A program made the position numbers and the translations under genes. A stretch of DNA of 20,266 nt, taken from a virus. The notes under the pieces were generated by a model that had not been told where the DNA came from, made no database searches, and saw only the letters and a program-made list of their open reading frames with translations. Positions 3,644-13,893 of the stretch are shown one piece after another (within the stretch, counting starts at the first letter, position 1; each line of letters begins with the position of its first letter). Location: the IMG/VR virus record IMGVR_UViG_3300044613_001034, positions 1 to 20,266 of that record; one strand, 5' to 3'.

Positions 3644-5055
3644 GTAGATTCCTCAAACGTCCAGTTTACGGCCTTGTTCTTTTTCTTTCCAAACTTTGGA
3701 TTGAATGCCTGACCATCAAAACCAGATCCGTAGGCTTCCTCTTCGGTGTTATTTGAATTGACAAGATTGTTGTTTGTATTGTCAACATCATAAAATTTCA
3801 TCTTAGATTTGTTGACACCAATCAAAAACTTTCTATTCTTTGTAAGATCGTTACCACGGTTCTTTAGCTGCTTGACCATAAGCTGACCTGCTTCAGCCAG
3901 CTCATCATTCTCAATGAGCGCAAAGAAGAAGTCTGCGGTCTGAGGCAAGCCAAAGCTTTCCGAAGTATCTGTCATCTCCATGTCGCTACTCTTCGCACCT
4001 TCACGGTTAACCTGAGTGGCTGTCCATAGAGGAACATTGAACTGCTTGGCAAGACCACGGAGCTCTTCTGCGATTCCCTTAACGTAGGTATAGCTATTCA
4101 TACCATTGCCTAGCTTGAATCGGGCACATGAGCAGATATTCAAATAATCTACAAAGATCACATCTGGCGCAAACTTCTTCTTGATCTTCAATTCTTCCAT
4201 AAGATTACGGAAGTGAGTTACGTTGGCTGCTGCCGTAGGATATTCCTTGATGATAAGCTTTCCACGACAAGTCTTTTTGAGGCTATCAACCTTGCTTTCA
4301 TACTGTGTCAGAGGCATTTGCTCAAGGATATGCATATCCGTGTCAAGTAGGTTTGCATCGATTCTCTTTGCAATTTCCTCTTCTGCCATCTCAAGAGTGA
4401 TATAAAGAACGTTCAAATTTTGAGAAAGACAAGATGCTGCATGGTGACACAAGAATGCGCTCTTGCCTACACCTGAAGCAGCCATCACTACGTTCAATGT
4501 CTTCTTTCGCGTTCCACCTCTGGTGATCTTGTTAAACATCTCAAGATCAAATCCAATCTTTTCCTCTACACGATGGTAATACTCATAGCGCTCATCGACA
4601 TCTTCAAGGAAATCGTGTCCGACTCTGGTATCGAAAGATACAGACAAAGCCTTTGACATGATCTCTGGAATAGCATTTTGGGTCTTTTCTTTATCCTTGC
4701 CCTCAATGATTCCAATGGATTCCATGATACCATTGTATATGGCTTTTTCTTTGCAGAACTTTTCAGTCTGCTCTACCATCCACTGTGTATCTGACTTCTC
4801 ACCTTCCTTGAACATGTCATCCGAAATGGATACACACTTCTTGAATTCTACTTCTCCAAGAGAAGTCTCATTCTCCAGAGATACGAGAATCGCATCTTTG
4901 GTGGGAAGATTGTTATATTTGAGAATAAACTTAGAAACAATATTGAAGACAGTCTTTTCTGACTTGTCGTGAAAATATGCTTCCTGTAGGAAGGGCACAA
5001 CCTTCCTTGAATAGTCCTCGTTCAAGACGAGGTTTTTCAAGATTACTGATTCCAT
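3640..5055 (-). CDS. 41: Replicative DNA helicase, DnaB/T4 gp41-like
   Basis: A hexameric 5'-3' helicase that unwinds the fork and recruits primase. The 471-residue protein matches T4 gp41 in length (475). An N-terminal helical domain (1-150) is followed by a RecA-type motor: Walker A ASGVGKSA (193-200), catalytic Glu222 in YITLEM, Walker B VIFVDYL (299-305) and the TATQVNR motif (345-351). The C-terminal tail is rich in Asn and Lys. There is no useful Shine-Dalgarno before the ATG at 5053-5055. Instead a TATAAT box ends six bases before the ATG, with TGGACA 16 bases further upstream, which suggests a leaderless transcript starting at this gene. It lies between the gp40-like and primase genes, as in T4. 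Confidence 0.95.
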   Translation of the reverse strand: MESVILKNLVLNEDYSRKVVPFLQEAYFHDKSEKTVFNIVSKFILKYNNLPTKDAILVSLENETSLGEVEFKKCVSISDDMFKEGEKSDTQWMVEQTEKFCKEKAIYNGIMESIGIIEGKDKEKTQNAIPEIMSKALSVSFDTRVGHDFLEDVDERYEYYHRVEEKIGFDLEMFNKITRGGTRKKTLNVVMAASGVGKSAFLCHHAASCLSQNLNVLYITLEMAEEEIAKRIDANLLDTDMHILEQMPLTQYESKVDSLKKTCRGKLIIKEYPTAAANVTHFRNLMEELKIKKKFAPDVIFVDYLNICSCARFKLGNGMNSYTYVKGIAEELRGLAKQFNVPLWTATQVNREGAKSSDMEMTDTSESFGLPQTADFFFALIENDELAEAGQLMVKQLKNRGNDLTKNRKFLIGVNKSKMKFYDVDNTNNNLVNSNNTEEEAYGSGFDGQAFNPKFGKKKNKAVNWTFEEST

Positions 5056-5061
5056 ATTTGT

Positions 5062-5089
5062 ATTATACTCTTATATTAATATATGTCCA
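5062..5089 (-). promoter_or_regulatory. Sigma70-type promoter of the helicase gene
   Basis: On the minus strand: TGGACA (5084-5089, one mismatch to TTGACA), 16 bases, TATAAT (5062-5067), six bases, ATG at 5055. It occupies most of the 37-base gap between the gp40-like gene and the helicase gene, and replaces a ribosome-binding site. Confidence 0.65.
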
Positions 5090-6678: not shown

Positions 6679-6918
6679 TTAATACTCCTGATTTACAGCC
6701 TTTAGCAATTCCAATTCTTCTTTCAACTCTTGCAATTCTTCTTTGAGTTGAACAATTATTTTGTTTTGTCTATCAATTTCTCTTCTCTGTTCTTTAATAT
6801 CACTATTATTTGAAAAAGTTATTTCATGATTTGAATTAGAACCAAAAATATATTTGCCATCAATAAATTTGGACTTTTTTATATCATACTGGTTATATTT
6901 TTTAGAAAAACTTTTCAT
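6679..6918 (-). CDS. Small coiled-coil protein directly after DNA polymerase
   Basis: A 79-residue protein, not recognised. The N-terminal half is basic and polar (MKSFSKKYNQYDIKKSKF). The C-terminal half forms a clear heptad-type coiled coil with leucines in register (IVQLKEELQELKEELELLK), so it probably dimerises or binds a helical partner. The start is taken as the ATG at 6916-6918; a TTG at 6936 in the same frame overlaps the polymerase stop and lacks a ribosome site. A TATAAT box ends six bases before the ATG with TTGAAT 16 bases further upstream, as for the helicase gene. That promoter lies within the last polymerase codons. Confidence 0.65.
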   Translation of the reverse strand: MKSFSKKYNQYDIKKSKFIDGKYIFGSNSNHEITFSNNSDIKEQRREIDRQNKIIVQLKEELQELKEELELLKAVNQEY

Positions 6919-6924
6919 TTTTAT

Positions 6925-6952
6925 ATTATATCTCAATTAAAGAACGATTCAA
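6925..6952 (-). promoter_or_regulatory. Sigma70-type promoter after DNA polymerase
   Basis: On the minus strand: TTGAAT (6947-6952, four of six consensus), 16 bases, TATAAT (6925-6930), six bases, ATG at 6918. The -35 box lies in the last polymerase codons. It would give the coiled-coil gene and the uvsX region their own transcript, separate from polymerase. Confidence 0.6.
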
Positions 6953-9434
6953 GTGTAACTCGTTTATTTATCGACCAACCAATAGCTTGAAGAATATTAT
7001 CAAGTGGTTCACCAAAAGTTTTGTCAAATTGTTTTTTACGATCAATATATTTTTCAAGTTGAAAATTTTTAGGTGGTTTGTTGATAAACCCCATAACTGC
7101 ATCTTTACCAGCTATCCCATAAGGATTGGGAACTTTAACAAAGACAAACTTCATCTTGTCGTTTTCCTTGATGGATTGAATTTCTTTGTCTATGTTTAGT
7201 TTCTTTGTATATGCATTATGCAACAATGCTGCCTTTGTAGCAATTGGAGTTCCAATCTTGTAAATATTAGAACTGTCTTTGTATTTATTGATACCCTTGA
7301 CACCCCGAGGAGCTGCGACATCTTCAATAGGCATAATCATAAAAGCATCATAAAATTTATCAACATAGTCTCGCAACTCCTCGGGAGTTTTTGTCAAGAT
7401 AATACGAATACAATCTTTTAATTTGGAACGCACGACTGCGGGAGTACTGCTTCGTGCAGTTTCAAGACCCATGATCTTTAACTTTGGATCTGCAAATCGA
7501 ACACCTTCAAGATCTTGCATAAGCAGTGCATATCGCTTTTTGGCAATAAACATTCCCGCAGAAGCAATTGCTTCACGCTTGAAGAAGATCTTATTTTCCG
7601 GACAACCGAGAGTGTATGCTAGCAATTCCATTTCTTTCTTAAACTGCGGTTGTATCTTGTGCTCACAGACTTCATGAATAAACTGTGTCACGTCTGCAAT
7701 TTCAGTCTTTGCAGAAACCTTCTCAACGACAGCATTCAGATTAAGATAGACAGAGTCAGTATCCACTGCCAGTACATAGTCCTTGTCATCCTTTGTAAGG
7801 TGCTGAATATAGTCGTTCATAGCCATCTCTGCCTTGCGAATGATTACCTGACCAGTTACGGTCACGGCGGTAGCAAGTTCCGGAGATGAATAGACGAAAG
7901 CAGGATTCCCAAGGCAACCATAAAGGCTGTTTGCAAGAATTTTTTTAACTGACTGACGAACCTTCAATGCAGCAATACGGGGAAGAAGATCTTTGTCCTT
8001 TGTCTTTTCGTATTCCTTCTCCAACTCAATCATCTTGTTCTTTGCTTCCTTACGCTGATTAAAAGTCTTTTCGATCAGGATTGGAATAAAGCCTTTGATT
8101 TCGCGTGTAAACATAGATCCGTTGCAGGCAAGACACGAAGATATGCTTTCTGCATGTTCTATAAAATTTGGAATATCTTTTCTTTTGCTTCGAAGAAAAT
8201 CATCTGCGTTTAAAGAAGAATCTTTGTGAGTGCAAGTTTCTGGTGAAATATTCCATTGCATAATAATGCTAGGATACAGACTTGTAGCATCAAAACTTAC
8301 AATATTTTTGTAGAGACCCGGAGTAACATCCTTTACGTAGGCTCCAACAAATTGATCGTCTTTGGCATAACTCCGCTTTAACGGTGGAATTATGTTTTGT
8401 TTAAAAAGATAATCACAGCAAATGGTTTCCCAGATGCGTGTTGCAAAGAAAACCGTATCAAATGTTATCTTGGCTTCGTATGCAATAGAAACCGCAAGGT
8501 CGATCAGTCTGAGCTTATTGTCAAGCTGTTCAACCAAGATTGCATCTTGAACGTTATACTCCGCAAACTTTTGAAAATCATTGCGGTAAAACTCCCGAAG
8601 TGACCCATACTCGCTGTAATCAAGTTTTTGAGCATCCAGTTCCGCCTTTGCAATAAAATTTAGAGCGTAACTTTCTTGACTCGTTCCGGAGAACTTTTTG
8701 TACAGATCCATGTAATCAAGAATCGTATATCCGGGAAATTCATAGATCTTATAGACCTTTCCACCGATATCCGTTTCCCGCATCTTCATCAAACCAAAAG
8801 GCAACCACTCCTGAATCTCCTTCTCTTCAAAGAAGAGTTTAGCCCTACCTATTATATAGGGCATATCGAACAGTTTAATATTCCACCCAGAAATAATGTC
8901 AACATCTTCTTTTGCCAAGACTTCAAAGGTTTTTTTGATCAGTTCCTTTTCTGAACTCGTAAGTATTACTTTACAATCAGGAAGATCGACTGGCTTTGAA
9001 GTTATGACATAAGTAGCGCCATCAACCCGAATGCTCATCAGGTTAATTTTTTCATTTGGGTTGTCCAAATCAGGAAACCCGTCTTCACTCTCACATTCCA
9101 AGTCTAGGTATGCGACTTTGATCTTGGAAAGATCGTATTCCACCTCAGCCTCATAAGTCTCCATGAGATATTGAGTGAGAAAATCAGTGTTTCCATAAAT
9201 CGGGCAATCATCTAAATCCCTGTATTGGTCAAGAAACTGTCTGCAATCATAAAGAGTGTCAAAGATCATACGCTTGACCTTGACACCATTCAGCGATCTA
9301 TACTTGCTGTCTTTATCTGTTTTGATGTACAGAGAAGGTTTAAACGCAACGGTGTCCGTAAACCGAACACCATTGCGATAACCTCGGACAAGTATTTTGT
9401 TGCCCTTCAGAGCGCAGGCAGTATAAAATTTCAT
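6933..9434 (-). CDS. 43: DNA polymerase, family B, T4 gp43-like
   Basis: The replicative polymerase with 3'-5' proofreading. It is 833 residues (T4 gp43 is 898). Exonuclease motifs: Exo I YLDLECE (Asp111, Glu113), Exo II NIKLFD (Asn185, Asp190) and Exo III YNVQD (Asp297). Polymerase motifs: A, SFDATSLYPSI (Asp382); B, KILANSLYG (498-506); C, VDTDS (Asp558, Asp560); then KKRY (632-635). All catalytic residues are present. Motif A reads DATSLYPS where DFxSLYPS is usual in the family. The last residues (TLESFFN) resemble the hydrophobic sliding-clamp-binding tail of T4/RB69 polymerases. The ATG at 9432-9434 overlaps the stop of the upstream gene as ATGA, so it would be read from the leftward promoter at 9756-9783. 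Confidence 0.97.
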   Translation of the reverse strand: MKFYTACALKGNKILVRGYRNGVRFTDTVAFKPSLYIKTDKDSKYRSLNGVKVKRMIFDTLYDCRQFLDQYRDLDDCPIYGNTDFLTQYLMETYEAEVEYDLSKIKVAYLDLECESEDGFPDLDNPNEKINLMSIRVDGATYVITSKPVDLPDCKVILTSSEKELIKKTFEVLAKEDVDIISGWNIKLFDMPYIIGRAKLFFEEKEIQEWLPFGLMKMRETDIGGKVYKIYEFPGYTILDYMDLYKKFSGTSQESYALNFIAKAELDAQKLDYSEYGSLREFYRNDFQKFAEYNVQDAILVEQLDNKLRLIDLAVSIAYEAKITFDTVFFATRIWETICCDYLFKQNIIPPLKRSYAKDDQFVGAYVKDVTPGLYKNIVSFDATSLYPSIIMQWNISPETCTHKDSSLNADDFLRSKRKDIPNFIEHAESISSCLACNGSMFTREIKGFIPILIEKTFNQRKEAKNKMIELEKEYEKTKDKDLLPRIAALKVRQSVKKILANSLYGCLGNPAFVYSSPELATAVTVTGQVIIRKAEMAMNDYIQHLTKDDKDYVLAVDTDSVYLNLNAVVEKVSAKTEIADVTQFIHEVCEHKIQPQFKKEMELLAYTLGCPENKIFFKREAIASAGMFIAKKRYALLMQDLEGVRFADPKLKIMGLETARSSTPAVVRSKLKDCIRIILTKTPEELRDYVDKFYDAFMIMPIEDVAAPRGVKGINKYKDSSNIYKIGTPIATKAALLHNAYTKKLNIDKEIQSIKENDKMKFVFVKVPNPYGIAGKDAVMGFINKPPKNFQLEKYIDRKKQFDKTFGEPLDNILQAIGWSINKRVTLESFFN

Positions 9435-9748
9435 TTCTTTGCGTCTTTGTCCTTGAGCAATCCTGCAAGGATAACACTATAATTGATAATGTCAACGATT
9501 GCGTCGTACACGCTCTCGTTTTTCAAACAAAGTTCTCCACGGTTCAAATAAGTAGAGATTCTTGACATTTTATCCGTCATTCGAATAAGAACCCCGAGTT
9601 CTGCTGTTGAAAACCCAAGATATTCCGCTCGGCGGAAGTTCATGAACGGATCTGCGGTAGAAGCATAGTCATTGTTCTTTTTTTCCATCAATTCCTTGGC
9701 TTCTTGACAAATTTTAGTATGTAAGGCAAATAGTTCGTCTCTAGTCAT
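9431..9748 (-). CDS. DUF1599/Nmad1-like (MazG-like all-alpha) protein
   Basis: A 105-residue, probably all-helical protein. Conserved blocks are KKNNDYA (23-29), DPFMNFRRAEYLG (33-45), RMTDKMSRI (56-64) and NESVYDAIVDIINY (77-90). This pattern is known from the DUF1599 / nucleotide-modification-associated family, distantly like MazG-type pyrophosphatases whose acidic residues bind metal. A role in cleaving or sensing modified or unwanted nucleotides is inferred, not shown. The start chosen is the ATG at 9746-9748; an upstream frame reaching 9844 would cross the divergent promoter region. There is no clear Shine-Dalgarno. TTGACA and TATATT boxes sit immediately upstream, making it the first gene of the replication unit, with polymerase overlapping its end. 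Confidence 0.85.
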   Translation of the reverse strand: MTRDELFALHTKICQEAKELMEKKNNDYASTADPFMNFRRAEYLGFSTAELGVLIRMTDKMSRISTYLNRGELCLKNESVYDAIVDIINYSVILAGLLKDKDAKK

Positions 9749-9755
9749 GTCGCCA

Positions 9756-9783
9756 AATATAACACCTTTTAATGGACTGTCAA
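9756..9783 (-). promoter_or_regulatory. Sigma70-type promoter of the leftward replication unit
   Basis: Read on the minus strand: TTGACA (9778-9783), 16 bases, TATATT (9756-9761), then seven bases to the ATG at 9748. The -35 box is a perfect consensus. The predicted transcription start is the ATG or the base before it, so the mRNA would be effectively leaderless. It should serve the DUF1599-like gene and DNA polymerase. Confidence 0.75.
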
Positions 9784-9786
9784 GAA

Positions 9787-9794
9787 TATAAATA
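9787..9794 (+). promoter_or_regulatory. T4-type late promoter box TATAAATA
   Basis: An exact match to the T4 late -10 box, which is read by host RNA polymerase carrying the phage late sigma and coactivator. In T4, transcription starts about six bases downstream, here near 9800. This is just ahead of the GGAG ribosome site (9807-9810) of the first gene in the rightward lysis and fibre operon. Only three bases separate it from the -35 box of the leftward promoter. Confidence 0.75.
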
Positions 9795-9819
9795 TTAAGA
9801 CACAATGGAGTTTGCAAAG

Positions 9820-10425
9820 ATGTACCTATCCATGATCGATCCAATTAAAACAATAGAAGGAATTTCTCTTGCAGTTATGGGAATTTTGGGTATTGGATGG
9901 GGTGTTGCAAAATTTTGGAAGACCAAACAAAAATCAGATAATTTTATAGCAATTCATACGGAAATCCATGAATTGCTTACCGAACTTCGTTTAAGTGCCG
10001 GAAGCATGCGAGCCACGGTGCTTCAATTCCACAACGGGGAATATTTTATGGATGGTATATCCATGAGAAAATTTTCAATCACGCACGAATCTTCTCACCG
10101 TGGTTATATTTCCCAAGCCGTAAAATTTAAAAATGTTCTTTGCTCACTTTATATTCCCCTTCTAAACAGAATTCTTGAAGACAAAGCTATTATCTACCAC
10201 GTTCAAGCAATGTCTGAAAGTTATGCAAAGCATTTCTTTGAAGATGAAAATATTTCTCATTATGCATGCCTACCATTAAAAAATAAAGCAATTAATGTCG
10301 GATTTATACTAATTCAATGGCATGAGGATTTTAAACCAAATATGGACAAAGAACATGCCATGATGGAACATTTCAAAACTATAAAAGATTCTATAGAACT
10401 TCAACTTTCATATCAGAGGAACTAA
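9820..10425 (+). CDS. Membrane-anchored GAF-like domain protein, unknown role
   Basis: A 201-residue protein with one N-terminal membrane segment (about 12-32, Gly-rich with GILGIGWGVA) followed by a basic KTKQK stretch and a soluble domain. The domain pattern (ATVLQFHNGEYFMDG at 65-79, FSITHESSHRG at 85-95, then LPLKNK and GFILIQWHED) resembles GAF-like sensor folds; this is inference from pattern. Start choice: an ATG at 9805 is in frame, but the late promoter would start mRNA near 9800, leaving no room for a ribosome site there. GGAG at 9807-9810 is correctly spaced for the ATG at 9820. It heads the operon with holin and spanin candidates, so a role in lysis timing or membrane sensing is possible but unproven. 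Confidence 0.7.
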   Translation: MYLSMIDPIKTIEGISLAVMGILGIGWGVAKFWKTKQKSDNFIAIHTEIHELLTELRLSAGSMRATVLQFHNGEYFMDGISMRKFSITHESSHRGYISQAVKFKNVLCSLYIPLLNRILEDKAIIYHVQAMSESYAKHFFEDENISHYACLPLKNKAINVGFILIQWHEDFKPNMDKEHAMMEHFKTIKDSIELQLSYQRN

Positions 10426-13341: not shown

Positions 13342-13859
13342 CTAACTCCAGTACTTCCAAATCCGCCAACCCGGTCTGTCTTCAGGCCGGGTTGGTTGTA
13401 AATTTCAGCAAACTGAACTTGCTCATACTTGACAACTTCACCTTGGGCGATTCTATCTCTGTTATAAATTTTAATAGGATCTTGTACGTTTGTGTTGATC
13501 ATAATCAACTTTGTTTCATACGTATAATCTTCATCAACGACACCTTCGCAGTTTGCCAATGTAAGACCATACTTTAAGGCCATACCTGATCTTGGGTGGA
13601 GACGAATTGAATATCCAGCAGGTATATCAAAAGTCAACCCAGTTCGTACCAGCGCACGTTCTCCCGGCATAAGAAGAATGTAGTATTCATCCTTATCGTG
13701 ATCGTATTGTGGTTCAATCTCGCTAGTCTCTTTTCCCTCCCACACCTTTACTTTTTCATCTTTGGGGATATAAGCAGCAAGATCAAAACAAGCAGCCATC
13801 TTGGTTTGGTAATTGGGATCAACTACTTCTGGAGAATCTTTATAATATTTTAAATACAT
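13338..13859 (-). CDS. dut: dUTPase (trimeric dUTP diphosphatase)
   Basis: Hydrolyses dUTP to dUMP and pyrophosphate, keeping uracil out of DNA and feeding ThyX. All five trimeric-dUTPase motifs are present in 173 residues: motif 1 AACFDL (22-27), motif 2 PRSG (89-92), motif 3 GVVDEDY (106-112), motif 4 RIAQG (136-140) and motif 5 RVGGFGSTG (163-171). Motif 1 has Cys where Gly is common. About 25 extra charged residues lie between motifs 1 and 2 (around 36-60). The start is the ATG at 13857-13859; a TTG at 13874 in frame overlaps the promoter. There is no Shine-Dalgarno. A perfect TTGACA and TATAAT pair ends six bases before the ATG. It sits alone between late genes, with its own promoter, and converges on the fibre gene. 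Confidence 0.95.
   Translation of the reverse strand: MYLKYYKDSPEVVDPNYQTKMAACFDLAAYIPKDEKVKVWEGKETSEIEPQYDHDKDEYYILLMPGERALVRTGLTFDIPAGYSIRLHPRSGMALKYGLTLANCEGVVDEDYTYETKLIMINTNVQDPIKIYNRDRIAQGEVVKYEQVQFAEIYNQPGLKTDRVGGFGSTGVS
13366..13395. terminator. Strong hairpin, candidate (bidirectional) terminator inside dut 3' end
   Basis: CCAACCCGG (13366-13374) and CCGGGTTGG (13387-13395) are perfect reverse complements. The inner CTG/CAG can pair too, with one G-U wobble, leaving a TCTT loop, so the stem can reach 13 pairs. On the plus strand it is followed by a moderately T-rich stretch (TTGTAAATTT), and it starts 25 bases after the stop of the rightward fibre gene. It lies in dut codons near motif 5, so it would form in both transcripts. 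The T-run is weak, so termination is inferred. Confidence 0.55.
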
Positions 13860-13865
13860 ATGTAA

Positions 13866-13893
13866 ATTATACAATCATATTGCCTTCTGTCAA
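13866..13893 (-). promoter_or_regulatory. Sigma70 promoter of dut, consensus boxes
   Basis: On the minus strand: TTGACA (13888-13893), 16 bases, TATAAT (13866-13871), six bases, then the ATG at 13859. Both boxes are perfect consensus. The -35 box overlaps the stop codon of the preceding gene. The predicted start of transcription is the A of the ATG, so a leaderless mRNA is expected. It lets dUTPase be expressed early although its upstream neighbours are virion genes. Confidence 0.8.

Follow-up and report, generated by a model that had tools for sequence, protein, structure and literature searches.

The 71 bases between positions 9749 and 9819 of the window (the whole IMG/VR virus record, 20,266 bases) probably form a conserved, composite, bidirectional promoter of T4 type. 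In this arrangement a leftward sigma70 promoter would drive an early transcript that is probably leaderless, and a rightward promoter dependent on gp55, gp33 and gp45 would drive a late transcript led by a Shine-Dalgarno sequence. The two promoters could presumably not be occupied together, and their arrangement appears to be part of a wider habit in this clade of setting promoters against start codons. Our working model is that host RNA polymerase carrying sigma70 would transcribe the replication operon leftward early, starting at its first codon, and that gp55 polymerase together with gp33 and the clamp would occupy the site late, transcribing the gene at 9820 rightward from about 9800.

The window covers part of the genome of a T4-like myovirus. 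It encodes homologues of the T4-type proteins gp61, gp41, UvsX and gp43, and its DNA polymerase is approximately 41% identical to the polymerases of T4-like phages of marine Synechococcus. Approximately 190 viral-contig loci carry relatives of the genes flanking the site, and our conservation count was made on 74 distinct intergenic regions from relatives; no relative was found in the bacterial genome contigs that we scanned. The genes for gp55, gp33 and gp45 lie outside the window, itself a fragment, and their homologues are known from long relatives: phmmer detected all three in six of six (gp55 at 4e-38 or lower, gp45 at 8e-39 or lower and gp33 at 2e-6 or lower), which agrees with the identities that the first-pass annotation had given to the early and late promoters. 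Searches for psbA in the six long relatives, for WhiB in any contig searched and for Rfam matches in the window returned nothing. Positions 1-1690 of the window have no long listed open reading frame; we considered whether they might be foreign or chimeric and rejected this, as they hold a ribonucleotide reductase gene (minus strand) common to relatives, which was unlisted because the gene is open-ended and runs off the left end. At the DNA level this gene resembles ribonucleotide reductase genes of Streptomyces and Roseobacter phages.

The box coordinates proposed by the first-pass annotation were exact for both promoters. On the minus strand, the -35 element TTGACA (9783-9778) and the TG-extended -10 element TATATT (9761-9756) are separated by a 16-nt spacer and match the consensus at 11 of 12 positions. 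Hexamers of this kind at the 16-18 nt spacing of sigma70 early promoters, with 10-12 matches of 12, were likewise found in 73 relatives. From the end of the -10 element to the A of the ATG at 9748 is 8 nt, which would place transcription initiation on the start codon or one base before it (nominal +1 at 9749); the transcript beginning there is probably leaderless. The first gene of this leftward replication operon (9431..9748, minus strand), predicted to have either no leader or one of a single nucleotide, encodes 105 amino acids with a weak DUF1599-like match, and the second encodes the family B DNA polymerase homologous to T4 gp43 (6933..9434, minus strand).

Only the three bases GAA (9784-9786) separate the early -35 element from the rightward late box, TATAAATA (9787-9794, plus strand). 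Given that the late box of T4 occupies positions -13 to -6 (PMC1524935), the predicted late +1 is 9800, in agreement with the start near 9800 that had been suggested before. It had also been argued that translation begins at the ATG at 9820 rather than at 9805, and comparison with relatives bears this out: the Shine-Dalgarno sequence GGAG (9807..9810, plus strand), kept in 72 of 73 regions, and the ATG equivalent to 9820 are both conserved. A start at 9805, which would leave a leader of 5 nt, was rejected since most relatives are without that ATG. The rightward mRNA from approximately 9800 is thus probably led by a Shine-Dalgarno sequence within a 20-nt leader.

Taken by itself, the window offers weak evidence for these elements; it contains 86 promoter-like sites against 58 expected, and TATAAATA occurs once against 1.5 expected in shuffled sequence, which alone is not above chance. 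It is the conservation among relatives that confirms the pair of elements. The composite early/late arrangement is kept in 73 of the 74 distinct intergenic regions, together with GGAG before the rightward ATG in 72 of these, while the DNA between the promoter elements is variable. A sigma70 pair with at least 10 of 12 matches is present in these 73 regions; the -35 element reads TTGACA in 52, TTGACG in 16 and TTGACT in 5, so that TTGAC is invariant, and the spacer is 16 nt in 63. The distance from the -10 element to the ATG of the left gene is 7-10 nt. All 73 also have a late box (TATAAATA in 61 and TCTAAATA in 12), with a gap to the -35 element of only 1-3 nt. The sole exception among the 74 is L062, where another gene lies to the left and approximately 24 nt separate the -35 element from the late box. 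In L062 the left gene has been swapped for a diverged homologue (53%) and the late promoter and right gene retained, a natural uncoupling of the two promoters.

The module of a late box set against a -35 element appears again at further divergent gene pairs of these genomes (G001_108/109, G001_116/117, G003_120/121, G005_41/42, G005_66/67 and G002_4/5), the gaps being -1 to 6 nt, and is thus a reusable architecture. We also observed a second conserved arrangement, TGTCAAG(N8)CTAAATAAT with a Shine-Dalgarno-led ATG, at G001_64, G003_25, G005_13, G002_119 and G006_14, where CTTGAC precedes in most copies. The palindrome TTGACTGTCAA, which adjoins a late box, could serve as a bidirectional site or as one under regulation.

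The first rightward gene (9820..10425, plus strand) encodes 201 amino acids that match no Pfam family. The predicted structure (mean pLDDT 84) combines a long helix at the N terminus with a GAF-like fold, with matches to GAF domains in the PDB at E values of about 1e-7 to 1e-5, and the product is predicted to be a GAF-fold protein anchored in the membrane by its N-terminal helix. It aligns with 35 relatives and has conserved HNGxY...HES residues. The first-pass annotation had called the rightward genes a lysis operon; this was not supported, as none of the four rightward genes matches a lysis family in Pfam or PHROGs and the fourth matches a PHROG tail protein.

The position of both promoters relative to genes is a feature of the clade. 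We examined 837 genes, called with our own simple gene caller in the six long relatives and grouped into 345 protein families. The peak for sigma70 pairs lies 7 nt upstream of the ATG (19 of 345 families against a background of 1.5 per position, P 3e-15) and that for late boxes 6 nt upstream of it (43 of 345 against 4.0, P 4e-29), where the P values assume a Poisson background and ignore residual dependence among genes. TATAAATA and its variant CTAAATA each peak at 6 nt across the 837 genes; the counts of TATAAATA in the long relatives are near those of a reversed-pattern control, so that the box is informative only through where it lies with respect to gene starts. At these distances +1 is predicted, from the geometry of E. 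coli and T4 promoters, to coincide with the start codon. Among the genes that carry the late signature are homologues of gp3, gp4, gp13 and gp25. Together with the 73 of 74 regions described above, this peak at gene starts places T4-type late boxes upstream of late genes. We considered whether the late peak could be an artefact of gene calling and rejected this by reasoning only: an in-frame stop codon within the box would favor distances of 4, 7 and 10 nt and not 6.

Four sigma70 promoters were recognised in the window at the starts of genes, and every one has start-codon spacing (7, 7, 7 and 8 nt). In addition to the promoter described above, these are, all on the minus strand and all upstream of genes predicted to be leaderless by this spacing: (i) TGGACA-16-TATAAT (5062..5089), 7 nt from the ATG of the helicase gene at 5055; (ii) TTGAAT-16-TATAAT (6925..6952), 7 nt from the ATG of a 79-aa gene at 6918; and (iii) a promoter matching the consensus at 12 of 12 positions (13866..13893), 7 nt from the ATG of the dUTPase gene at 13859. 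The gene for gp55 carries the early signature: in four contigs (G001:C1:24203, G003, G005 and G006) its GTG start codon lies exactly 7 nt downstream of a sigma70 -10 element, and the activator of the late genes is therefore itself predicted to be expressed from a leaderless message. Shine-Dalgarno sequences precede 0 of 133 predicted leaderless genes and 42% of the others, a difference that is partly forced because the promoter element fills that space. These data suggest that many messages in this phage group probably start directly at the first codon, which would be unusual among T4 relatives. We consider it somewhat more probable than otherwise that this T4-like clade, and in part HTVC008M, has moved both its sigma70 early and its gp55-type late promoters onto start codons, which would make many early and late messages leaderless, that of gp55 with its GTG among them, and that composite promoters have shrunk to approximately 50 bp, where occupancy by one sigma would exclude the other.

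The likeness to T4 itself lies in the box TATAAATA, in the homologues of gp55, gp33 and gp45 and in the presence of a tail-protein family member among the downstream genes. The T4 boxes, however, are found 13-40 nt upstream of the ATG and none of them at 6 nt, where the clade has its peak. The common variant CTAAATA is shared with phage Aeh1 (PMC1524935). The marine cyanomyophages S-RSM4 and P-SSM2, which are closest by identity of DNA polymerase (41%) and capsid (54%), have TATAAATA and CTAAATA boxes but lack the peak at the leaderless position; T4, phiM12 and Cr30, examined with them as controls, likewise have no peak at either the early or the late start-codon position, and the late peak is absent from a more distant contig, G011. 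The cultured T4-like Pelagibacter phage HTVC008M does have late boxes 6 nt before the annotated ATG in 12 genes (P 4e-12), and 12 of the 14 TAAATANNNNNATG sites in its genome (NC_020484) end exactly at starts annotated in GenBank. It differs in the context of the box, TAAATAGT, and in that its early leaderless peak is not significant (2 genes). The abutting early/late module was looked for in HTVC008M and S-RSM4 and was not found. Ribosomal protein bS21, which is relevant to the choice of start site by the ribosome, was found only in HTVC008M. Leaderless genes, in bacteria and in other phages, are a close precedent for the early signature: a -10 element at about 7 nt from the start codon, with no Shine-Dalgarno sequence, is the computational hallmark of such genes in bacteria (PMC3160421). 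Here the signature would extend from host sigma70 to a phage-encoded late sigma factor, in a T4-like phage. The literature that we searched, with most subscription papers outside the search, contained no report of leaderless promoters at start codons in T4-like phages or cyanophages.

How the two promoters affect one another may be judged from their geometry. Counted from the late +1, the early -35 element spans approximately -22 to -17 and the early -10 element approximately -44 to -39. In T4 the clamp abuts the polymerase on its upstream face and lengthens the footprint by approximately 13 bp (PMC2988020; PMC7892883). Since the late box touches the early -35 element, and the added footprint would here fall on the early promoter, the two complexes would claim the same DNA and mutual blocking of the promoters is expected. 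This agrees with one part of the early/late switch proposed in the first-pass annotation, namely that polymerase bound at one promoter should block the other. Compactness alone is not a sign of a switch: the divergent late/late pairs of these genomes, at which no early/late switch could exist, are packed as closely (9 of 10 have gaps of -4 to 11 nt), and tightness alone thus has no early/late meaning.

We regard it as doubtful, then, that the overlap is kept as an antagonistic switch in which the assembly of a late complex at 9787-9800 actively silences the polymerase operon. Its retention in 73 of 74 regions, its recurrence at several early/late divergent pairs and the T4 clamp, which lengthens the late footprint upstream (PMC2988020) and here onto the early promoter, are what such selection might produce, but the equally tight late/late pairs and the toleration of separated promoters in L062 argue against it. 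A further consideration on the same side concerns the host-type promoters themselves. T4-like phages turn off early sigma70 transcription by other means anyway. The same late/late gaps and the same exception, together with a coding density of approximately 90%, are consistent with packing for its own sake, that is, two independent promoters at minimum spacing without base overlap in a dense, leaderless genome and with no regulatory consequence. This seems to us slightly on the probable side, although the sizes of the footprints would give steric exclusion whether or not it was selected, and early/late is the commonest class among divergent pairs in which we recognised both promoters (15, as compared with 10 late/late). 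A third idea, that the late box is accidental and only the sigma70 promoter is real, could appeal to the box being no more frequent in the window than expected; it is extremely improbable, being refuted by the fixed place of the box amid variable sequence in 73 of 74 regions, with the peak of late boxes at gene starts throughout the clade and the presence of gp55 also against it. The reading that we find most economical has start codons placed on +1 and divergent promoters packed as closely as possible, with exclusion following whether selected or not; exclusion may be a by-product of compaction.

On the composite-promoter reading, the locus at 9749-9819 is a clean natural reporter for competition between early and late promoters. 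Precedent for the difficulty of recognising such promoters comes from the pelagimyophages, where a published prediction of late promoters with cyanophage methods failed (PMC7029224); the cause may be that the box lies only 6 nt from the ATG. If this is true, the late genes of many uncultured T4-like phages could be annotated and their start codons fixed. Our findings also raise the testable questions of whether T4-like phages depend on leaderless translation in these hosts and of whether a late sigma factor is tuned to start RNA exactly at the AUG.
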